A stretch of DNA of 64,000 nucleotides, taken from positions 8,184,001 to 8,248,000 of the forward strand of contig JAPNXP010000002.1 of NCBI GenBank assembly GCA_028753945.1, in the 5' to 3' direction. The notes beneath the pieces were generated by a model. The model did no database searches. It was not told the origin of the DNA and saw only the letters and a program-made list of their open reading frames with translations. This document shows positions 1 to 56,678 of the stretch, one piece after another. Origin of the DNA: Hexactinellida sp. DTS-2022. Its lineage: Eukaryota; Porifera; Hexactinellida. Made by a program: the position numbers and the translations under genes. The stretch's first letter is position 1. Each line of letters opens with the position of its first letter.

Positions 1-1090
1 CTGATCTAAACTAGAAGAGTTGAGATTTGTAAAACACATATAAAGTCAAGTTTATCTAAAACTCGGATTCTTAACAGGGTTGCCAATCCAATCCAATTCA
101 ATCGAGAGAACTTATCGATTATCGATTGCTGAATTTTGTATCGATTGGATTGCCCAAAGTCTTCATCAATTGGATAATTACCGATTTTTCCAATTTTACG
201 TGTAAGGCGAAAAATATTAATATATTTGTTTGTTTGGACGAATAAGTATGAAAAAACATTATAAAATTATAGCTAATGAGTCCATAAAAATGAAAATTCA
301 AAAGTTTTGCAATTTGCTTATACTTACATACGGAATCGAATATGTAAATAGTTTATTGATAATACTTTATTGAGATGGCATCGGAAAATACTATGTAACT
401 TGGAAGTAAATAACGGATATATAACAGTGGCAAATGTAACTGCTGGAAATTAACGTCAGTGAAATTAACGCGATTTAGAGCAATTCGTATTAATTTCCTA
501 TAATAGGGTATTAATATAGGTAAATAGTAACTTCATTAGTAAGTATAGCAAAACTCGTTAGTAACTTAGAATTAACATGATTAATGCTAACTTTTGGTTA
601 GTACGAACACAATTTTTGGAATTTTAAAATTATTTAAATTTAAATTACACCGTTAAAACCGGCTTCTGATTAGACGAACAATTTTTGATCGTCTCTTGGT
701 TAATCAGGAAGTTTATATCAATACCTAAAGTACTTGACCTGATCCTAATCAGTTATGAACTTTACGGGGGATATAGCCCTCGTAGCGCCCCCGTGGTCCC
801 GCAGCCTATGCATGAGCGGCAACGAAAAATCCATTTCCGTTAAACATAACTACTGTCAATTGAGTTTTTGTTAGTTGCACTTATAAACGATTCTGATTCA
901 TTATATTGAATGAAGGAGATAACTAATCTACCCCCGACCATGGCCAAATTTTAGTTAAGAAATCCTGAATCTAAAGAATTGAATTTACGTACCAATTTTC
1001 TTCTTCTTTTTTCTCTTAGATAAAGATAGAAATAGAAATAAAGCATCAGCTAATTATTTTGCGAATTATGGTATACAAAGAAAAATATAA
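1..1090. other. AT-rich non-coding flank
   Basis: No gene recognised. At about 440-515 there is one end of the MITE family that is complete at 40295-40677, recognised by the phrase CTATTATAGGAAATTAA read on the minus strand. Text resembling pogo-like ends (TTAGTACGAACAC) lies near 597-610. These are fragments. If the mini-exon gene next door is real, this flank holds its 3' untranslated region; I found no clear AATAAA close to the stop. Confidence 0.5.
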
Positions 1091-1096
1091 AAAAAA

Positions 1097-1129
1097 TCAC
1101 TCGGCTAACTCGCCGGAACCCCCCAGACT
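1097..1129 (-). CDS. candidate terminal exon with stop
   Basis: After the last GTAAGTATC donor, the minus strand has CCCAAATCAG as an acceptor, followed in phase 0 by SLGGSGELAE and TGA. The intron would be 84 nt. It is the first phase-compatible acceptor and stop downstream of the array. It is a short exon and the weakest part of the model. Confidence 0.35.
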   Translation of the reverse strand, partial: SLGGSGELAE

Positions 1130-4100
1130 CTGATTTGGGAGCATTCTAGTACAAAGGAACATAATATTACAAGATATGCAACCAAAGTGGACCCTGACAA
1201 ACTAGATACTTACGGGGACAGTTTTTACCGCCCCCTGCGGCCCCTGCGGCTGGGTGCCACCTGCTGAAGTGTTGCTCTATATTAGAGAAATAAGCATAAT
1301 TAGAGTCAACCAAAGTGGACCCTGACAAACTAGATACTTACGGGGAGAGTCTTTAGGGCATCCTGCGGCCCCTGCGGCTGGGTGCCGCCTGCTGAAGTGT
1401 TGCTCTATATTAGAGAAATAAGCATAATTAGAGTCAACCAAAGTGGACCCTGACAAACTAGATACTTACGGGGAGAGTCTGTAGGGCACCCTGCGGCCCC
1501 TGCGGCTGGGTGCCGCCTGCTGAAGAGTTGCTCTATATTAGAGAAATACGCATAATTAGAGTCAACCAAAGTGGACCCTGACAAACTAGATACTTACGGG
1601 GACAGTTTTTACCGCCCCCTGCGGCCCCTGTGGCTGTGTACCTGCTGAAGTGTTGCTCTATATTAGAGAAATAAGCATAATTAGAGTCAACCAAAGTGGA
1701 CCCTGACAAACTAGATACTTACGGGGAGAATCTGTAGGGCATCCTGCGGCCCCTGCGGCTGGGTGCCGCCTGCTGAAGTGTTGCTCTATATTAGAGAAAT
1801 AAGCTTAATTAGAGTCAACCAAAGTGGACCCTGACAAACTAGATACTTACGGGGAGAGTCTGTAGGGCACCCTGGCCTCGCTCTTGCCCCTGCCGGGACT
1901 GGTTATGATTACTATCGGACAATATAATCAACCAAGTAAAAGCTTGCAAGCAATATACTCACCTAGGGTAGAAATTGTGGGAGTTTTGCCGCCCCTGCAG
2001 GGACGGGCGATGATATCTGAATCTATATCGGATAATATAGTCAACCAAGTGTGAAGCTTGGAAACAATATACTCACCTAAGGACGCTGTGGGGACTTCGC
2101 CGCCCCTGCGGGACGGACTATGATATCTGTCTCTATATCGGACAATATAGTCAACCAAGTGTGAAGCTTGCAAACAATATACTCACCTATGGTCGCTGTG
2201 GGGGGCTCGCCCCTGCCGGGACGGGCTATATTTTATGTCTCTATATCGGACAATATAGTCAACCAAGTGTGAAGCTTGCAAACAATATACTCACCTATGG
2301 TCGCTGTGGGGGGCTCGCCCCTGCCGGGACGGGCTATATTTTCTGTCTCTATATCGGACAATATAGTCAACCAAGTGTGAAGCTTGCAAACAATATACTC
2401 ACCTATGGTCGCTGTGGGGGGCTCGCCCCTGCCGGGACGGACTATAATTTCTGTCTCTATATCGGACAATATAGTCAACCAAGTGTGAAGCTTGCAAACA
2501 ATATACTCACCTATGGTCGCTGTGGGGGGCTCGCCCTTGCCCCTGCCGGGACGGGCTATAATTTCTGTCTCTATATCGGACAATATAGTCAACCAAGTGT
2601 GAAGCTTGCAAATAATATACTCACCTAGGCAGTGGCGCCGAACTTTTCCATTTTTCGGAAAATCATGCCGGGGCGAGTTAAGAAATTTTTAAATTTCACC
2701 TAGTATAAAACATGTTTTCCGAAAAGTTGTTTTACCAATCTAATGAAACTTTTTTCAAAGAAGTCGGTTTTATATTGATGAAAAATTTCCCGCTAAATCG
2801 CTATCTATTCAATTTACTGACAAAACACATACAGTGCATTCTTTAACAATTACGGTTCAAATTAAGTTCGGCCGTACCTAATTAGCAAAGTTCTAAAGAA
2901 ATAATAAAAAATAGCAATCCATGATAGATACATCCAATTTATCACGATATACCACCTAAAATCAACGAATTTCGGCAGATTTATGCCGGGGCGAAACAGT
3001 GGCCGCCCCGGCATGGTTGACGCCTATGCACCTAGGGTAGTCACTGGGGGGCCCTTGCCCACTGTGGGCAGGCGCCCATTCTGCGTATCTATATCGGACA
3101 ATACAGTCGACTCCGCTTAATAGAGCCACCTCGGGACCAGGATGTTTTGACCCGATTAAGCGGAGAAACCGATCAACCGGTGGCTCTATTAAGCGGAGTT
3201 GACTGTATAATCAACCAAGTGTGAAGTTTGCAAACAATATACTCACCCGTCGATTAAATTGGGGGGAAGAGGGGCTGCTTGCCCCTGCCCCTGCCACTGC
3301 CCCTGCCCCTGGGGCCGATTGTAATTTCTGAGTCTATATCGGACAATACAATCAACAAAGTCTGAAGTTTGCAAACAATATACTCACCCGTCGATTGAAT
3401 TGGGGGGAAGGGGGGCTGCTTGCCCCTACCCCTGCCATTGCCACTGCCCCTGGGGCCGATTGTAATTTCTGAGTCTATATCGGACAATACAATCAACAAA
3501 GTCTGAAGTTTGCAAACAATATACTCACCCGTCGATTGAATTGAGGGGAAGGGGGGCTGCTTGCCCTTGCCCCTGCCCCTGCCACTGCCACTGCCCCTGG
3601 GGCTGAGTGTAATTTCTGAGTCTATATCGGACAATACAATCAACAAAGTATGAAGTTTGCAAACAATATACTCACCCGTCGATTAAATTGGGAGGAAGGG
3701 GGGCTACTAGTCCCTGCCCCTGCCACTGCCCCTGCCCCTGGGGCTGAGTGTAATTTCTGAGTCTATATCGGACAATATAATCAACAAAGTCTGAAGTTTG
3801 CAAACAATATACTCACCCGTCGATTAAATTGGGGGGAAGGGGGGCTGCTTGCCCCTGCCCCTGCCCCTGGGGCTGAGTGTAATTTCTGAGTCTATATCGG
3901 ACAATATAATCAACAAAGTCTGAAGTTTGCAAACGGTATACTCACCCGTCGATAAAATTTGGGAGAAGTGGGGCTGCTTGCCCCTGCCCCTGCCACTGCC
4001 CCTGCCCCTGGGGCTGAGTGTAATTTCTGAGTCTATATCGGACAATATAATCAACAAAGTCTGAAGTTTGCAAACAGTATTCTCACCTCAGGTGATCGCT

Positions 4101-4334
4101 GGGGGGGCCTTGCCCACTGTGGGCAGGCGCCCTGGCCTCTTCTCTTAGTAAATCTGTCTAAAATACATGTGTTTTAGCAATTTAGTAAATTATTAACCAT
4201 ATTTACTATTTTTATGCACTCACCAGTTGATTTAAGCATCGAGCAATGGAGTTGGTTACCCCGACCAATGTCGGGGTAACCAACCCACTTTGCGTATGTC
4301 CTCCTCCTCTACCCCGCCGCTTATTCCTTTTCAT
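1097..4334 (-). CDS. candidate gene of ~22 tandemly duplicated mini-exons (Gln/Gly/Pro/Arg-rich protein)
   Basis: Not recognised as a known family. On the minus strand a basic ATG exon (4224-4334) is followed by about 20 cassette exons of 39-93 nt and a terminal exon ending in TGA (1097-1129). Most introns are 54-84 nt. Acceptors are mostly TATAG; donors are GTGAGTAT in the upstream two thirds and GTAAGTAT in the downstream third. Phases join correctly: 0 out of exon 1; 0-to-2 for exon 2; 2-to-2 for the middle cassettes; 2-to-0 for a hybrid exon; 0-to-0 for the last five; stop exon entered in phase 0. Length changes between cassettes are nearly all multiples of three. Two cassettes are faulty: 3388-3474 has an in-frame TAG and 2077-2132 is one base short. 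Both lie among 2-to-2 exons, so skipping them keeps the frame. A decayed gene, or a minisatellite that merely carries splice-like motifs, are the alternatives. Confidence 0.55.
1214..1785 (-). repeat. array of five cassette exons (type 1), unit ~126 bp
   Basis: Proposed exons: 1214-1276, 1342-1404, 1470-1532, 1598-1657 and 1723-1785 (63, 63, 63, 60 and 63 nt), phase 0 at both ends. The acceptor is TTCTCTAATATAG and the donor CCCCGTAAGTATC. Peptides follow SNTSAGGTQPQGPQGALQTLP with changes such as AVKTVP for ALQTLP. The 60-nt copy has lost exactly one codon. The core TQPQG is shared with the type 3 exons although the intron text differs. Confidence 0.55.
1851..1911 (-). CDS. hybrid phase-switching exon (phase 2 in, 0 out)
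   Basis: The exon has 61 nt. Its acceptor side (CCGATAG and upstream intron) is of type 2/3; its donor side (CTCCCC then GTAAGTATC) is of type 1. After one base that completes a split Ser codon it reads NHNQSRQGQERGQGALQTLP. It is the exon needed to join the 2-to-2 cassettes to the 0-to-0 cassettes, and it has the length that allows this. Confidence 0.55.
1963..2555 (-). repeat. array of six cassette exons (type 2), core unit ~108 bp
   Basis: Proposed exons: 1963-2022 (60 nt), 2077-2132 (56 nt, broken), 2187-2225, 2295-2333 and 2403-2441 (39 nt each), and 2511-2555 (45 nt). All but the second are phase 2 at both ends. The 39-nt form reads PSRQGRAPHSDH between split Ser codons. Acceptors are GATATAG in 1963-2022 and ATATAG or TTATAG in the shorter copies; the donor is always TAGGTGAGTAT. 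In 2077-2132 one G is missing relative to its neighbours, which breaks the frame. Because the 108-bp unit is a multiple of three, unspliced readings are also open on both strands; I take those as by-products of the period. Confidence 0.5.
2630..3028. mobile_element. hAT-type MITE inserted in the mini-exon array
   Basis: The element has 399 bp with ends CAGTGGCGCCGAAC and, inverted, CATAGGCGTCAAC. It is flanked on both sides by the exact 8-bp duplication CACCTAGG (2622-2629 and 3029-3036). The target is an exon-intron junction of the array. No coding capacity is seen. Confidence 0.85.
3032..3088 (-). CDS. candidate cassette exon with donor disrupted by a hAT-type MITE
   Basis: The exon has 57 nt, phase 2 at both ends, preceded by GATATAG. 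It reads YAEWAPAHSGQGPPSDYP. Its end CCTAG should be followed by GTGAGTAT, but the MITE at 2630-3028 has inserted within the junction. The true donor and a copy of the last five exon bases now sit at 2615-2629, and the exon itself is followed by GTGCAT. The intron on its upstream side (in transcription) carries a pogo-type MITE. Confidence 0.5.
3104..3205. mobile_element. short pogo/Tc1-mariner-type MITE
   Basis: The element has 102 bp with inverted ends CAGTCGACTCCGCTTAATAG and CAGTCAACTCCGCTTAATAG, flanked by TA on each side. It lies in a proposed intron: removing it restores an intron of about 56 nt like its neighbours. A 185-bp relative is at 62471-62655. Confidence 0.85.
3247..4032 (-). 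repeat. array of six cassette exons (type 3), unit 129-147 bp
   Basis: Proposed exons, in plus coordinates: 3247-3333, 3388-3474, 3529-3621, 3676-3762, 3817-3891 and 3946-4032 (87, 87, 93, 87, 75 and 87 nt). All are multiples of three with phase 2 at both ends. Consensus peptide starts LRNYTQPQG, continues with QG/QW pairs and ends near PLPPNLID. Size differences come from 6-nt CAGGGG or CAGTGG steps. Introns of 53-55 nt share the phrase TTGTCCGATATAG before the exon and GGGTGAGTATATTG after it. The exon at 3388-3474 has CAG changed to TAG. An Arg/Gly-rich frame is also partly open on the same strand, but is closed by TAA in several copies. Confidence 0.55.
4087..4157 (-). CDS. candidate exon 2 (phase 0 in, 2 out)
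   Basis: The exon has 71 nt, preceded by an acceptor ending TATTTTAG with a TGCTAAAAC branch-like motif about 20 nt upstream, and followed by GTGAGAAT. It reads TDLLREEARAPAHSGQGPPS and a few more residues. The part APAHSGQGPPSD recurs in frame in the exon at 3032-3088, although the two are separated by six cassettes of another type. Confidence 0.5.
4224..4334 (-). CDS. candidate initial exon of the mini-exon gene
   Basis: The exon has 37 codons starting at the ATG at 4332-4334 (minus strand) and ends in CTG followed by the donor GTGAGTGC. The start reads MKRNKRRGRGGG, a basic Arg/Gly stretch with no signal peptide. The upstream ATG near 4344 meets a stop within a few codons, so this start was preferred. 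A TATA-like GATTATACATG lies just upstream on the minus strand. The exon contains a 15-bp inverted repeat (arms 4252-4266 and 4271-4285). Phase 0 at the donor matches the next exon. Confidence 0.5.
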
Positions 4335-4373
4335 GTATGCTAAATGCTCAATAACATGTATAATCAATTGATA

Positions 4374-4510
4374 TACAGTGGAAACCGCTTAATTCTTAAT
4401 CGGGACAGCTCAAGGCTAAGCATTTTGTCCCGACGAACCCTTCGGTCTCGGTCGCTTTGCGACAGATCGGTGCTACGCACCTCAAGTTAACGGCCGCTAT
4501 GCGGCCTTAC
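4374..4510. mobile_element. one-ended pogo-like fragment and hairpin-chain motif
   Basis: The stretch starts with CAGTGGAAACCGCTTAATTC and then has Tc/pogo-like text with GTCCCG. From 4437 it runs into consecutive tiny hairpins: GGTCGCTTTGCGAC, GGTGCTACGCACC and GGCCGCTATGCGGCC. A related chain occurs at 14848-14915. No opposite end was found. Confidence 0.5.
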
Positions 4511-5621
4511 TCTTCACTAAACAATTGATTACATAGTTAGTAATATTTATCATAGTTATATACTTATAATAAGCGTTTAAGGGTACACTAAGACTAAGTG
4601 AATTTTCAACATTCGAATTTGAGAAATTGAAATAGCCATTAATTTGCTCTATAACTATCTAGTAAATATACATAGTAACAGAAGTTGCGAATTCATATAT
4701 CCTCGGTTATAGCTTAATCAACTCTATTTAGCTGTGTTTGTCTCTTTTCAAATTTTGATTTTAGGATTACAATTTTCTAAAATATATTATTGGACATTTT
4801 AGTCGAAAATATTCATAATTTTCCCATTAAAAAAATAATAACTTATTAAAACATTTTTAAAAAAGGAACAGACATAGATACTTGCAATTATCGATATTTT
4901 TTACAATGAATGTCCCTTTCAAAAAATCATATTTTTACCCTTTATCACTTTTGGCGCAGTGTCTAAAAGATTTTTTACTTTTTTGTCTTTTTTTTTCAAT
5001 AAGTTCATAATAATCATAGAAAACAACATTTATGGAAGAAATATTTTAATCTATTTTTTATTAAAAAAGATTAACTCCCAAAAGTGAACTCAAAAGTGAA
5101 ATTTTGTTAATTTTTTCCGGATTCGTTGTCTTCAAGTATTTTCGATTTCTTTATCAAAATATTTTTATATTTCCAAAAAAAAATTACAATATAAATGATT
5201 CGCCGCCGATCAGTCCTCTTTGTGCATATGTGTAAAGTTTTATGCAACAATTGTTCATCATATCGGCGATGAATAAACGAATCCTATGTTTTCAATTTTA
5301 TGTTTCGTTTATTGTTACTCTTTATTTGATATGTGTATTTTTTATGATTTTTTTGTGTTTTTGAATTTTTTTCTGTTTATTTAATTTTTGTTTTTTAGAT
5401 TCTATAGGTTTTTGTCTATTTGTCTAATTGTCTCTTACATGGTCCTATCAAACGATCCTAAAGTCTATTTGTCTAACTGTATACTAAATAATGAAGACAT
5501 TTGAAGCTCCTTCGATTTGTACGTATTGAATTTCTCTAAGGCATGATGAAACGATTTAGAAGATGTTATGTGTCTAAGTGGCATTGTTGGATATGTCGCA
5601 CATGAATTCAGTTGCTGCGGT
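4511..5621. other. AT-rich spacer
   Basis: About 1.1 kb rich in T and A runs, with no open frame, no long inverted repeat and no recognisable element. It may include the downstream end of the MULE, but I could not identify a terminal inverted repeat. Confidence 0.5.
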
Positions 5622-8197
5622 TTAACTAGTTTCCTCCAACCCTACGCAATGGAAGTGGTAATTGCGATTACATACGTCACACTGAATCCAATTCAATATT
5701 TCTGCTCTTACACAGATGTTTAGATTATCAATTACTCCGTCTTCATCACCTTTCCCGCAAAAGGTACAAACTAAGTTTTCGGAAGTTACATGCAATGAAG
5801 TAGGTGTTGTAGAAGTGTCAATCGGAAAAACTTCTGGACACACTGTGGAGAGTAGAGATTCAGGTGTTATTTCGGCATGGGGTTCTGGCAGGTTCGAAGC
5901 ACTGTATTTCCCGCTCTCGTACTTCTACCAAACAAACGAATGCTCGCAGTCCTCTTCCTTTGATGCATCATTCTAGAATCAAATCGTCTCTTCTGTTTAC
6001 TTAGTTGAACGAAGCTCCTATTTACTCTCGACAGATCCATTTTCGTTAGCACGTTGACAAGATTCGGGTGGATTGTGACTTTCAATTCCCTCAGTGTTTC
6101 CAGGATGGCAAGGATACCTTAGGTTATACCTGATAACGGATAGTGCACTGCACAATTTCATTACATCCATGCCTACTGCACCGGTTTTACGCACCATTGA
6201 AACAACAAACTATGTAAACATTCGTTGTGGTTACTTGTTTACCATCGGCTATTCGATTGACAAAGAAATCCTCATCGTAGTGAAATGGCCTAAAAATTCG
6301 ACTAACTAGATCTACAGCCTGTGCGCTGAGATAGTTTGGATGACGCGGAGGCTTCTCGCCTGCAGCGATTGCCTTTTGATATCGACACCACGAATCCGGA
6401 CCTGTTGCGCACGATGAATGGTTTATTGAGGCATTATCTTCGTTCGCTCCTAGGTGCAGAGGTATGGCTTTTATTGACTGTAATATTGCTTCACTATCTC
6501 CTAGATGTTGTTTGACAGCTAGTTGATAGAATAATGTAATTCTCGTGCACATCTCTTGACTTAGGTATTTCAATTCTACTGGTGCCTTATCTTTCTTAGG
6601 TTGTGAGGTTATTTTAGAAGGACGCACTGGAGAAGGAAATAATCTCGCAGGAAGAGTATCCGTCCAAGTGCCACGCTGAATCTGAGTTCGAACCAAAGTA
6701 CCGGCAAACTGTTTCTTTAGCTTTTTCTTTTGAGCCCCTGGAATTCGATTGCCACCGAATCTTCGATGCAAATTTCTTTGCGCTTCTTATCCGCTCGTTT
6801 AGATTTCAGTATTTTGTATTGTTCCTCCATTAGATGCCCTTTCATGCGCTTTCCGACGTGTGCTAAGCATTCGTAACGCTTTACGACATGTTCTGGTGCT
6901 ACATCTTCGTAGGGATTGTGTTCCGAGATTTTGGAGAATGTTTTATTGTCTCCATCACCGACTAACCCGTCGAAGATTATTCTTCTTCTGAGGGCTTGTG
7001 CTAAAATATTATGGGCAATTTCGCTTTCGAGCGAGACACTAGAAAACGCCGCGTATAACCCAGGACAGTTGGCTTTGTGATCTCCTAAGTTTTTCAGGTA
7101 TTCGGCTTCGGTGATAATCCCGTCTTCTAGTAGATTTTCGAATCGAGTACAAGTACTGCAACTATTGCAAGCAACGTCGTACGCTAATACCTTACCATTC
7201 GCCATTGATATTACCGAACCAAAGCAGTACCTTGAGTATCCCCCACCGCTCTTAGTGGATCTCTTCTGGTAGGCACCGTCAAAGGATGCGATGGTGTGAA
7301 TGAAATTATTTTCGTCGGTGACTGATTCGTTTTCAAAATCGATGGCAGCGTTATTCATCGATCTTTCAGCTATAAACTCCGCGACTAATAGCAATTCCTT
7401 TTGGGATCCACGAAGACGCCAGGCGGTAGTCCTATGCCATTCATTGAGTGATATATATCGAGGGAATACTTACCGAGACCAACTAGACGACCAGCAAGAA
7501 TGCACTGATACATTGTGTCGTTGCGTTTAGTGATCTTGTGAGGTCCGATATCGATTTTAGACTGGAATTTGCCAGAAATAGTCCAGAAATCTTTGCCGCT
7601 ATTGCAAACATCACAGCGCATTGTAAGATAGTTTGCGAAACACGTCCTGGTTCCCTTGTCCCAGATATGCAAGCTTCCTCTACGACATATCTTGCAAACA
7701 GCGCAAAATTCTAGAACATCCGCAAGTACTTCAAGGTCAATGACAAGGTTGCAGCTAAGTGAAGAAACTGTTACGACCTTCTCACGCATATCAGGGGATC
7801 TAACAAGCAATTCATGGGGAGTTTCCTTCTCAATTAATTCGAAACTAAGACCCAACTTTGATTCAGCGGTGGTTCTGCTTGCTTGCGGTGTTTGCTTAGG
7901 AGAATGAGATGGTATGGGGTTTACAGTGGCAGCCTTCGGGCTATTACGACAGATCTTCTTGGTGGCGTGAAGTCTGAGTGGTGATTTCATGAGATTACCA
8001 GGCGCCTTTCTCTTCTTCAAACCATATTTCGCATGGCCAGTGTATTTCCTAGAAGAAGATTTCGACTGAATGCCACAGAAATCGAAGGTTTGAGACAATC
8101 CAGTGGTAGGAGTGACATCAAGGTCGTATTCAGAGGAGCTTTCGCTACGGGGGTCAATAGAAGTATCCGGTATATAGTCTGTGTCGCGCTTAGACAT
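5622..8197 (-). pseudogene. decayed Mutator-like (MULE) transposase with C-terminal PHD finger
   Basis: MULE transposases cut and insert their own DNA element. Five minus-strand segments in three frames line up end to end. The first (7385-8197, 270 aa) has a Ser/Lys-rich N-terminus and a zinc-binding set (Cys165, 168, 171, 186, 195, 198). The second (6717-7394) has the first catalytic Asp in SFDGAY (residue 39) and the second in LVGDGDN (residue 147), then YECLAHVGKRM. The third (6187-6771) has GPDSWCRYQKA. The catalytic Glu codon survives out of frame at 6221-6223 in ECLHSLL, followed in another frame by VGMDVMKLCSALSVIRYN. The last segments give a basic tail and a PHD-like Cys/His cluster (CTFC, CDVC, HFHC) that stops before the final Cys pair. 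At least four frameshifts make it inactive. No terminal inverted repeats were found. Confidence 0.85.
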
Positions 8198-17992: not shown

Positions 17993-19407
17993 CTAATTAT
18001 CAGCAAGAGAATCCTCTTGAACATTTGAATCTGATGCCATATCCACAGTATCTGATTTTGCCAGGGAATAACTCGCATGCGAATAACCACTTCCGAACAA
18101 AGATGCTTGCTCTTTACGCTCCGCCTTACGCATTTCCTCTCTAGCAAAGCCGTCTTCCCATACGTGTTCTTTTGTGCTAGTCTTGATCCGTTTATTATCA
18201 AGCAGACGAAATCTCTCCTTTGTGTGTATGAAATCCATTGATGCAAGAAGTATTTCTAATATATTGTATACATCATTATATCCCCCATTGTAACGGATGA
18301 CGGACAATGCAGCTGCCATTCTTAGCGAATTAAGTCCAACATGATCTTTCTTCGGGGCCATATCATTCAAGAGACTGTGTATAACTTCGTTATGATTTGT
18401 AGTCATTCTAAAACTCACAGTTTGTATAAATTTTACGTGATTGTAATTGTAATCTGAGAAGATAGTTTGAACGTGTTTAACTAATTCCACAGATAGATAG
18501 TTCAAGTGGTGAGGCAGATCAGATTTGTTAAAAATAGCTTTTTGATAATCACACCAGGTATCTTTACCAACAGGACATAATTGGTGGTTTACGGGGGCAT
18601 TGTCGTCACTAGCCCCAAGATGAGACGGTATCGCATCTATTTCAGCCTTTGCTCCCATAGGATTTTAATCGTTATTTTCCAGAGCAAGACGATACAGGTG
18701 GTAACTCTTCCAGCTATCGAGCGAGTCATGTCTTTGATTTCCACAACCTGAGGTTCGACTTGTGCTGCTATAAATTTACCATTCAGAAGATTACCAAGCA
18801 TGTTTCTTATCACATGGCTAAGGCACTCCAACCTCTTAATTTTCGGAATACCTAATTGATTACAGAAGGTAGCATTCAAGGATTCAATACCATTATTATC
18901 TCCATCACCGACTAGTGTATGAAAAACGATACCTCTATTGAAAGCTTGTTTAATTAAATCAGGCGCTACTGCAGTTTCCATATGATCACCAGGCAATGCC
19001 GGATATTCTAATGGATAACAATCCACTTTGTGAACATCCCACTTCGCGGGTTCTTCGTCTGATGCTTTGTCATCATTGACGAGATTTTTATATTTAGTAC
19101 ATGTGCGACAATTCATGGCGGCTACTTTGTATGCAAGCGCTTTGCCTGTGTCCGTGGATACAATAGAAGAAAAGCAAGCCGAAGAATTATAAGCACCGTC
19201 TATAGAACCAGGAACATGTACGAGATTGGTAGTGTGATCAATTTTGTTCTGAGATTTTAACTCCATCGTCGCCCTTTTCATGCATGCTGCAGCTTCGTCC
19301 TCAGCTGCAGTAAGTAATACCGTGTGAGTCTGCTCGAATGTATATGGGGTCGGTGCAGGTGGAAGGTTCATACATGCATTAAAAGTGCGCAAATTCTCGG
19401 AATTCAT
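17993..19407 (-). pseudogene. second decayed MULE transposase, no PHD finger seen
   Basis: Two minus-strand segments join with a frameshift near 18640-18660. The upstream one (18637-19407, 256 aa) carries the first catalytic Asp in GSIDGAY (residue 70), a Cys pair in CRTC, the second Asp in LVGDGDN (residue 168) and KRLECLSHV. The downstream one (17993-18658) carries GKDTWCDYQKA, the catalytic Glu in NHNEVIHSLL (residue 91) and VGLNSLRMAAALSVIRYN. The frame breaks again upstream of 19407: DISYVLAARIV occurs in another frame just before it, as expected for the N-terminal half. All three catalytic residues are therefore visible, but no intact protein. It is a different lineage from the MULE at 5622-8197: they match only in family motifs. 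Confidence 0.85.
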
Positions 19408-50375: not shown

Positions 50376-50464
50376 GACCTAGCTAAGAAAATTAAGCGCT
50401 GTTGCCAAAGTGGGGTATGTGTCAACCCCACAAATTTTGGGGTATATATAGCCAACATGAGCAT

Positions 50465-51270
50465 ATACGTCCGGAATCAGTGGGGTCTGAATATACCCCA
50501 CCTGGGCTTCTACGTCGGGAATCAGTGGGGTCTGAATATGCCCCACCTGGGCTTCTACGTCGGGAATCAGTGGGGTCTGATTATACCCCACCTGGGCTTC
50601 TACGTCGGGAATCAGTGGGGTCTGATTATACCCCACCTGGGCTTCTACGTCGGGAATCAGTGGGGTCTGAATATACCCCACCTGTGCTTCTACGTCGGGA
50701 ATCAGTGGGGTCTGAATATACCCCACCTGGGCTTCTACGTCGGGAATCAGTGGGGTCTGAATATACCCCACCTGGGCTTCTACGTCAGGAATCAGTGGGG
50801 TCTGATTATACCCCACCTGGGCTTCTACGTCGGGTATCAGTGGGGTCTGATTATACCCCACCTGGGCTTCTACGTCGGGAATCAGTGGGGTCTGAATATA
50901 CCCCGCCTGGGCTTCTACGTCGGGAATCAGTGGGGTTTGAATATACCCCACCTGGGCTTCTACGTCGGGAATCAGTGGGGTCTGATTATACCCCATCTGG
51001 ACTTCTACGTCGGGAATCAGTGGGATCTGATTATACCCCACCCGGTCTTCTACGTCGGGAATCAGTGGGGTCTGAATATACCCCACCTGGGCTTCTACGT
51101 CGGGAATCAGTTGGGTCTGATTATACCCCACCTGGGCTTCTACGTCGGGAATCAGTGGGGTCTGAATATACCCCACCCGGGCTTCTACGTCGGGAATCAG
51201 TGGGGTCTGATTATACCCCACCTGGGCTTCTACGTCGGGAATCAGTGGGGTCTGATATACCCCACCTGGG
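50465..51270. repeat. 45-bp minisatellite, about 18 copies
   Basis: The unit begins GTCGGGAATCAGTGGGGTCT and ends CCACCTGGGCTTCTAC. Copies alternate GAATATACC and GATTATACC and carry few other changes. Because 45 is a multiple of three, frames stay open across the array on both strands: 15-residue repeats such as SEYTPPGLLRRESVG and, on the minus strand, GYIQTPLIPDVEAQV. The A/T alternation changes the amino acid in all of these frames, which gives no support to any of them as selected coding sequence. Confidence 0.9.
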
Positions 51271-51437
51271 TATGAGTTTATGTGTCATTTTGACAACAAT
51301 CACAAGCTACTTATAACATTAATATGCTAGTCTTTTCTAGCTAGATTGAATCAATACAATTATCACACGTTCAAGCAAATTTATTAAATGAATACATCTT
51401 TTTATTGTGCTTTTTCTTGTAAAAACCTATCGTAGGG

Positions 51438-55033: not shown

Positions 55034-56678
55034 TTAATAAAATGATACATCTTTTCCACAGTTTGAACAAAAATAAATAGTCGTGGCATGGGTATTGCAA
55101 ATAAATGAAAAACATGTTTGACATCTTTTTTTAGTCTTTTTATCTTGTGACCTTGGGCAATCTCTGCACCTCCCCACTCTTTTAATTTGTGTAGAAGCTT
55201 GAGGCGGATTAAATGTAGACACCTCAACCGTCGGCAGTGTTAATTCAATATTTTGATGTTGAATATCTAGAGTAGAGGAATTACAAGCCTGATTAGGGAG
55301 TATTTGTTGTGGTTCACTACTCGAAATTTCAGTATTGGATAAGATGAATGAATCTGGGATAATAGAATTGGATGTGCTTGGAGCATTAAGCTCATTTTAC
55401 GGTGTTGATGTAACACTTTGGTTCACTATTGGGGATGAGGATTCACAGATCGAATTAATAGTGGCTTTTACATCTGTAGAGAGGTAACGGAAGTTAGAGG
55501 ATTGTTTTCTTGATAAAACTAAGGGACGAACTAGCTCTTGGGCCAATTCATATAGAAACTTTTTCCTATTTTTAGTTAAAGAGAGAGTATGAGATGGAAA
55601 TTTTATACAAAAGATCACCCACGCAGCAAGTCCAGAAAATGCGATCAGATCATAGAATAATACGCAAGGCCATCTTCGTGTGGCCCTATAAGGGCGATAT
55701 TCCTTATTCATTTGATCTGCTTTGTCCACCCCCGATTTATTTGAATTATAATCTAATATAATTTCGGGTTTAAATTTATGGTCAGAAGATACATCCGTTT
55801 CAAAATGTATGTTTGATATAAGTAGGACGTTTTTAGTCTTCTTTGCTATATAGGAAACCAGGGTCTTGTTATCTGTGAAATAAAATTTAGAAGAATAAAG
55901 AGGTATCCCCTTTAAATAGGTGAAGCAAGTAGGAATTTCCCTCCGACTTGATTTTATTGTACCTAAGTAGAATATTTGCTTTTCTTGGAGCAAGCGTTTG
56001 GATAACTTTATAGAACTGAAATAGCTATCCCCAACAATAACATGCCCAGGGGAAATATTCGAGAGCATGCGCATAGAAACTTCTTCCGATGAGTTAGATA
56101 GTGACAAACTTTTTCCAGTATATACTTCTAGTTTTAGAGGATAAAAATTTCGGGCGTCTGCAATCATCCAACATTTGATGCCATATTTGTCGGGCTTATT
56201 TGGCATAAACTGACGAAATCTACAGCGTCCCCTGTACGGCACAGATGTTCATCAAGAGTTATGAACTTACCGGGTCTGTAAGCTAAATGAAAAGCATCGT
56301 TGACAATGGTCCATATATATCTAATAGGAGCTAACTTATCAACCAATGCCCTTTCACTACGTGTACTCAAGTCATCGAACCTCAAAAACCGTAAGATATT
56401 TTTCAGGCGTTCACGAGGAATAGTTGCCCGAAAGATGGGTCTACCAAAGTTAAGATCGTCGCTGTATAGATCACGTAATGGATCCCTCGTTGCCCGGAAC
56501 ACACCTGTTACGATCATGAGGCCAACAAAAGCTTTTATTTCGTTGAGATTGAACGTATTTAGATATCGTCTATCCACAGATTCATCCAGATGAAAATTCA
56601 AAAACTCCTCCAATTTTTTATTTGTCATCTTCAAAACAGTATTAAAGACTTTTTCAGAAAAGAACAAAGAAAAGAAAT
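55034..56678 (-). pseudogene. piggyBac transposase, main exon, one frameshift and one premature stop
   Basis: piggyBac enzymes cut and insert DNA at TTAA sites. The upstream segment (to 56164) has the N-terminal DDE domain (AFVGLMIVTGVFR, RPIFRATIPRERLKNILRFL) and the first catalytic Asp in TLDEH (residue 139 of the segment). The frame then breaks near 56240 (one base lost just before PYRGRCRF) and continues in 55397-56242 with PNKPDKYGIK, the second Asp in VGDSYFSS and the third in SGVDKADQM. A TAA at 55397-55399 interrupts the tail, but the same frame stays open beyond it and ends in the C-terminal Cys-rich domain (CRDC, CQTC, CSNC). All three catalytic Asp codons remain. With the exon at 59171-59423 the total is about 630 codons, near family size. 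Confidence 0.88.

Follow-up and report, generated by a model that had tools for sequence, protein, structure and literature searches.

The micro-exon genes (MEGs) of schistosomes are described (PMC3961193) as tandem runs of symmetric exons of 6 to 36 bp with lengths in multiples of three and scope for alternative splicing, and several of their products carry signal peptides. The bicycle genes of aphids (PMC9168663) contain numerous small internal exons, nearly every one of phase 2; they evolve fast and were found by structure, not by sequence. In primate segmental duplications (NPIP, GYPA, and others), exons outpace the adjacent introns, fivefold in one example that has an excess of non-synonymous differences and was compared exon by exon (PMC3906575). 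Here we describe a locus in a 64,000-nucleotide stretch of DNA (the window) from the sponge Hexactinellida sp. DTS-2022 (contig JAPNXP010000002.1, positions 8,184,001 to 8,248,000). With a probability of about 0.8, the locus at 985-4334 on the minus strand of the window belongs, as a damaged copy, to a dispersed multigene family of predicted protein-coding mini-exon genes, in which the exon cassettes diverge fast and the introns do not. Small nucleolar RNA (snoRNA) host genes are a further point of reference, as they are spliced, have non-coding exons, and have introns that are more conserved than the exons.

The family works like MEGs and bicycle genes, yet it fits neither definition in full. 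It shares symmetric exons with MEGs: all nine distinct phase 2-2 cassettes in three paralogues are multiples of 3, and cassettes stand in tandem in the paralogue C11:7575 and in the window. Unlike the 6- to 36-bp exons of MEGs, its cassettes are mostly 48 to 93 nt long, with a few of 27 to 36 nt; by eye, exon 1 has no obvious leader of the kind that several MEG products carry. With the bicycle genes as described it has in common that it is a fast-evolving small-exon family with a phase 2-2 block; here, however, a phase 0-0 block follows the phase 2-2 block, synonymous sites are fast in two of three pairs, and the two complete models (C17 and C11:7575) contain no cysteine and hence no CYC motif. 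Like the accelerated primate exons, the exons change more than the adjacent introns, but in one gene pair a difference of at least 6% is found in six of the seven exons compared, and synonymous sites are fast as well. The introns are more conserved than the exons, as in snoRNA host genes; unlike those, the family offers frame and codon evidence for coding, the compared cassette introns are 53 to 68 nt long, and nothing in the window reaches the gathering score of an Rfam family. We found no literature report of such a family in a comparable setting, which does not show that none exists. If a further animal has a mini-exon family, this plan would seem to be a route to fast protein change that was taken more than once. 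What is unusual is the rate pattern, with exons, synonymous sites included, far ahead of introns. The question is testable at the locus, since protein-level selection, homogenised introns, and a pressure on mature RNA each predict something different, and the same genome holds a natural control in homologous arrays without donors.

Cut at donors and TAG acceptors, the window locus yields 23 predicted mini-exons in the order ATG exon, E2, six B cassettes, a cassette with a split donor, six C cassettes, a switch exon, five A cassettes, a penultimate exon, and a last exon. Donors are mostly GTAAGT or GTGAGT, acceptors mostly TAG, and introns mostly 54 or 65 nt long. An earlier, sequence-only reading had placed GC-rich cassettes between such acceptors and donors on the minus strand, and the counts bear this out: within 1097-4334, GTRAGT occurs 20 times on the minus strand and never on the plus strand (mean of 1.8 and maximum of 7 in 300 mononucleotide shuffles). 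The GC content of the window is 36%. Acceptors of this style are usual in the genome: TAG also directly precedes the conserved FWE/FWQ stretch in four beta-tubulin-like genes (introns inferred from translation). Length fits phase in 20 of 21 internal exons (19 of 20 in the sequence-only reading), the exception being the 56-nt exon at 2132-2077. Copies in tandem have lengths in common, which makes the count weak evidence by itself; the weight rests on tests with paralogues. Of the phase-consistent gene of about 22 mini-exons that had been proposed, the phase plan stands, with 23 exons, and is seen in paralogues; this copy is not an intact open gene.

Searches elsewhere in the genome led, by way of the 3' flank and intron 1, to paralogues on C17, C11, and C12 with a shared phase plan. 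The queries were exon 1, the 3' flank, a C12 copy, and the C17 start; the search scores best candidates only, so counts of family members are lower bounds. Intron 1 is present at at least 14 places on C2, C4, C11, C12, and C17, plus further pieces. In the copies matched by the query L057, intron 1 and the block before the ATG match at 75 to 95%, and the exon between them varies in length and sequence in many copies. The shared plan consists of a start exon, an entry exon (phase 0 to 2), phase 2-2 cassettes, a switch exon (phase 2 to 0), phase 0-0 cassettes, and a Lys-rich last exon. The whole plan is found in C17 (C17:3188549-3190340) and C11:7575 (C11:7575423-7577990) and its 5' part in C12:4024 and C11:5653. 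The two complete genes read MHNERD..AVLGLIKQL, TQML..., one or more NLERRGSSPS..RRRR-type cassettes, a linker cassette, the switch exon, 0-0 cassettes, and the Lys-rich end. The window entry exon (TDLLREEA...) and last exon (RKKKKKIGT*) match C17 and C11:7575 in position and phase. C11:5653 was retrieved after the plan had been fixed: its three exons all fit the plan in length and lack stops in the frame foreseen, whereas a stop occurs in five of the six other frames. Its borders were set by hand, since one donor is lost and the fixed rule for calling exons listed none there.

Several lines of evidence argue that these exons are protein-coding. The spliced models of C17 (108 aa) and C11:7575 (216 aa) contain no internal stops, against 5 and 9 stops in the shifted frames of C17 and 7 and 33 in those of C11:7575. 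Under the fixed rule, the nine distinct 2-2 cassettes of C17, C11:7575, and C12:4024 are not only multiples of 3 but also open, with 8 and 28 stops in the other frames. Among the same three genes, all eight exon indels and none of the four intron indels have lengths divisible by 3, where indels are counted pair by pair and so do not represent independent events; in C2, a broken copy, indels are not all multiples of 3. The sequence-only reading had asked for synonymous and non-synonymous differences to be counted among the cassettes. In type A cassettes, the proportion of synonymous differences (pS) exceeds that of non-synonymous differences (pN) in the right frame (0.252 and 0.132), as against 0.175/0.175 and 0.116/0.182 in the wrong frames, and differences fall 6/6/13 on the three codon positions. 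Between C17 and C11:7575, non-synonymous change lies below synonymous change (p 0.03). The coding reading gains support from this, because synonymous sites are the freest. It was also correct that exon and intron were duplicated together as units, and the symmetric cassettes do read as protein coding in intact-looking paralogues. The Gln/Gly/Pro-rich product foreseen earlier fits the window and the near copy L009, but the C17 and C11:7575 models are Arg/Lys/Ser-rich. The four model proteins matched no Pfam-A family at E up to 1, and a search of the PDB with the C17 model gave a single match (E 0.29), none convincing. Lys and Arg outnumber Asp and Glu in both complete models (27 to 13 in C17, 62 to 31 in C11:7575), and no leader is visible by eye in MHNERDAVLGLIKQL and MKRNKRRGRGGG... 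From composition only, and with low confidence, the product is probably a short cationic intracellular protein and possibly binds nucleic acid.

The A intron recurs in many arrays of ~115-bp units, mostly on C11. Retrieving 38 loci from the match lists, we scored type-A introns (E up to 0.01) in 35 of 39 sequences, the window included. In the homologous arrays of 31 further loci (24 on C11), GTRAGT stands at the donor position in 0 of 246 units. This is the argument for reading the locus as a non-coding satellite, a dispersed ~115-bp tandem repeat with splice-like sites by chance and nothing spliced or translated. We consider it most improbable, since the spliceable loci (window, L009, L010, and L045) together retain the donor in 14 of 16 type-A introns, and two spliced paralogue models have long open frames. 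The divergence within arrays argues in the same direction. In the window, exon and intron parts diverge by 0.105 and 0.012 in A, by 0.064 and 0.033 in B (five of the six cassettes), and by 0.147 and 0.019 in C; the values are 0.054 and 0.018 in L009, 0.073 and 0.015 in L030, 0.042 and 0 in C11:7575, and 0.390 and 0.138 in C2. Exon parts thus vary 1.9 to 8.5 times more in six spliceable arrays, and the seventh has no intron change at all. In 20 donor-less arrays, by contrast, the mean exon/intron ratio is 0.99 (range, 0.49 to 1.87), so that exon and intron divergence are equal on average only where the donor is missing (7 against 20 arrays, one-sided Mann-Whitney p 6e-5, the infinite ratio being set to 50). 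An equal rate of change in the two parts had been named beforehand as the result that would speak against a gene; examined among the paralogues of one genome, not across species, the exon parts vary more. Base composition as a cause of the gap between exons and introns was set aside, given the donor-less arrays. A common element around these arrays was sought, and few shared flanks were found. One of the loci, L042 (C11:10253000-10258000), has arrays of 115-bp units in both orientations (18 plus and 7 minus at E below 1), and the opposed arrays could form a long hairpin RNA.

Introns usually change faster than coding parts, and the mini-exon family shows the reverse. In the six pairs that can be formed from four paralogues, exons differ by 10 to 40% (25/182, 16/153, 45/169, 44/159, 33/177, and 59/146) and introns by 1 to 5% (5/226, 2/227, 9/223, 5/226, 11/222, and 8/223, respectively), a difference found in all six (Fisher p 2e-5 to 1e-19). 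Over 97 codons of C17 and C11:7575, pS is 0.247 (16.5/66.8) and pN is 0.123, each separated at p 8e-14 from a non-coding baseline of 22/1573 (1.4%) that pools a 759-base alignment containing an insertion (10 differences), the 3' flank (3/343), and every intron compared. Synonymous sites thus lie ~18-fold above non-coding ones, and the inserted stretch and 3' flank together (13/1102) are as low as the introns. Exon 2, fused to a cassette in C11:7575, was omitted from this comparison. The 60 nt upstream of the ATG, which are not uniformly slow (1/53 for C17 and C11, 12/52 for C17 and C12, 28/60 for C12 and C11), were excluded from the baseline; C12:4024 seems to carry other sequence there. The pair of C12:4024 and C11:7575 is similar (pS 0.302, pN 0.162, non-coding 0.022). 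Decay of CpG sites was rejected as a cause of the exon change, as CpG transitions account for 3 of 44 exon differences.

Exon change of 10 to 40% against 1 to 5% in introns, together with hypervariable start exons, is what ordinary strong positive selection on the protein would produce, with the introns as neutral baseline as in fast effector-like families. The pair of C17 and C12:4024 agrees with this, in that pN (0.095) but not pS (0.076) is above the non-coding level. Plain positive selection nevertheless fits poorly because synonymous sites are fast too in both pairs with C11:7575, and between C17 and C11:7575 dN lies below dS; we judge it unlikely. Elevated dS would follow if gene conversion had homogenised introns, insertion, and flanks while selection removed converted exons, so that exons look old and introns young. 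A stretch of 51 nt in an intron is indeed identical between C11:5653 and C11:7575, beside an exon in which C11:5653 differs from C17 at 5 of 48 positions. On the other hand, very short tracts would be needed for an alternation every 50 to 60 bp over seven compared exons, and the 759-base stretch with the insertion and the 3' flank diverge as little as the introns. We regard this explanation as rather unlikely. Splicing constraint on short introns may explain part of the gap between exons and introns, not the slowness of the inserted stretch and flank.

A host-type gene for a spliced non-coding RNA, with its function in the introns and exons free to drift, would also have introns far more conserved than exons, and it would accommodate the broken frames of many copies and the long inverted repeat of window exon 1, in which copies differ by paired changes. 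This reading was favoured after breaks had been found in the window, L009, L010, and C12 copies next to conserved introns, and was reversed by C17, C11:7575, and C12:4024. In these intact-looking genes the frame is kept through all eight pairwise exon indels, and between C17 and C11:7575 synonymous change is greater than non-synonymous change. Moreover, the exons are faster than the inserted stretch and 3' flank, which drift alone cannot give, and the window lacks an Rfam match. We hold a non-coding host gene to be very unlikely.

We therefore prefer the mini-exon gene family, for which the following course of events is proposed. Each gene comprises a promoter-side block, start exon, entry exon, one or more 2-2 cassettes, switch exon, one or more 0-0 cassettes, penultimate exon, and Lys-rich last exon. 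Cassettes multiply as exon-plus-intron units, and the anatomy shows that they can be gained or lost, and presumably also skipped, without a frameshift, a tolerance that may be the reason why broken cassettes persist. The cassettes, but not the introns, then diverge very fast. The diversity of exons could be kept by a conflict acting on the mature transcript or its product, a tentative proposal to which we give somewhat less than even odds. A bolder reading, that diversification is aimed at exons as such, is speculative and on balance distinctly unlikely. It would account for sites of the mature transcript, synonymous ones included, being ~9 to 18 times faster than introns, inserted stretch, and 3' flank between C17 and C11:7575, and for the absence of this effect on average in donor-less arrays. 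If true, exon-aimed change would imply a force that sees only spliced RNA: either the mRNA evades silencing by small RNAs, or mutation itself is linked to exons.

A number of observations weigh against the coding family and its rate pattern. When all exons called by the fixed rule are taken together, lengths divisible by 3 are found for 23 of 33 distinct 2-2 exons and for 10 of 11 distinct 0-0 exons; these counts include false exons (L009 3201, L031 5252, and a 97-nt exon of C11:7575), and the rule missed B cassette 1. L030 has six distinct cassettes of 61 to 62 nt, and B cassettes show no codon-position signal (6/9/10). Breaks are present in most members examined (window, L009, L010, C2, C7, L030, L060, C12 copies, and, with one donor, C11:5653). 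C7, the test copy taken alongside C11:5653, is decayed: of the three cassettes checked, one still has the right length and frame, but it no longer has its donor. As to the rates, the arrays do not form independent samples, and the ratio of 1.9 for window B is at the top of the control range (highest, 1.87). Synonymous differences between C17 and C12:4024 (3.0/39.5) are not separated from non-coding ones (11/321; p 0.2), and exon 2 is identical in this pair (0/29), so not every exon is fast.

The anatomy of the window copy, all on the minus strand, begins with exon 1 (4224-4334; MKRNKRRGRGGGHTQSGLVTPTLVGVTNSIARCLNQL), which carries the ATG, has 111 nt, and exits in phase 0; the paralogue L010 has the same start and the same 111 nt without an indel, and L066, translated by eye, has a related start exon. 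At 4251-4284 exon 1 contains a near-perfect inverted repeat with arms of ~15 bp, in which paired changes are seen by eye between the window and L060 and partly in L010. Intron 1 (4158-4223; 66 nt; GTGAGTG...TATTTTAG) is the block that is matched even in paralogues in which a DNA search does not recognise exon 1. Exon 2, the entry exon E2 (4087-4157; 71 nt; phase 0 to 2), has the non-GTRAGT donor GTGAGA and is the positional counterpart of TQMLTEENFR in C17. A repeat search found three tandem arrays, at 3209-4087 (period 141), 1913-2627 (period 108), and 1179-1874 (period 128). The B cassettes, of phase 2-2, lie at 3946-4032 (87 nt; LRNYTQPQGQGQWQ...), 3817-3891 (75 nt), 3676-3762 (87 nt), 3529-3621 (93 nt), 3388-3474 (87 nt), and 3247-3333 (87 nt). 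They are followed by the 57-nt cassette at 3032-3088, also of phase 2-2, and by the C cassettes at 2511-2570 (60 nt; phase 2-2; DRNYSPSRQGQGRAPHSDH), 2403-2456, 2295-2348, and 2187-2240 (54 nt each), 2077-2132 (56 nt, frame-breaking), and 1963-2022 (60 nt). The switch exon (1851-1911; 61 nt; phase 2 to 0) joins a C-type start to an A-type end, and a 28-nt exon has the same role in C17 and C11:7575. The A cassettes lie at 1723-1785 (63 nt; phase 0-0; SNTSAGGTQPQGPQDALQILP), 1598-1657 (60 nt), 1470-1532, 1342-1404, and 1214-1276 (63 nt each). The penultimate exon (1101-1145; 45 nt; phase 0-0; NAPKSESGGFRRVSR) has the other non-GTRAGT donor, GTGATT, which is GTGAGT in L009.

The end of the gene had been misassigned in the sequence-only reading, whose stop exon used a TGA at 1099-1097 that does not share the frame of the last cassettes; the phase leading to it meets a stop inside three of the five window A cassettes. 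The TQPQG frame (phase 0), in contrast, is open in each of the nine distinct A cassettes that the window, L009, and L010 contain and continues to a Lys-rich exon at 985-1014, outside the borders drawn before. This exon (RKKKKKIGT*, acceptor CTAAG, or CTTAG in L009) is likely the end of the window gene, and similar tails close C17 (RQKKKKN*) and C11:7575 (RQKKKIN*).

The window copy is a damaged family member without an intact frame. Besides the 56-nt cassette, an in-frame TAG (3428-3426) interrupts the B cassette at 3474-3388 in the very phase assigned by the sequence-only reading, and a 399-bp insertion at 2630-3028, flanked by an 8-bp target duplication (CCTAGGTG at 3029-3036 and 2622-2629), splits the donor of the cassette at 3088-3032. 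We take this insertion to be a non-autonomous hAT-like element. A palindromic, TA-flanked insertion of 102 bp (3104-3205, minus strand), in the intron between 3246 and 3089, is by its appearance presumably a miniature inverted-repeat transposable element (MITE)-like piece. Pieces that look similar by eye occur just upstream of the start exon in the window (~4377-4440) and in several paralogues, where they perhaps serve as promoter material.

Elsewhere in the window, fragments of Mutator-like and DDE_Tnp_1_7 transposases, the latter presumably piggyBac-like, occur at 6187-7394, 18637-19407, and 55397-56667, and a 45-bp tandem repeat of ~18 copies at 50402-51316 is open on both strands. On C12, a long helicase-like frame that we assume to be RecQ-like lies between parts of tandem family copies (L061, reverse strand 3830-5720). 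Among the best candidates, the 112-Mb genome has at least 16 homeodomain matches; a search for GH6, run without a positive control, gave no match. The frame in L054 is one that we take to be epsilon-tubulin-like.

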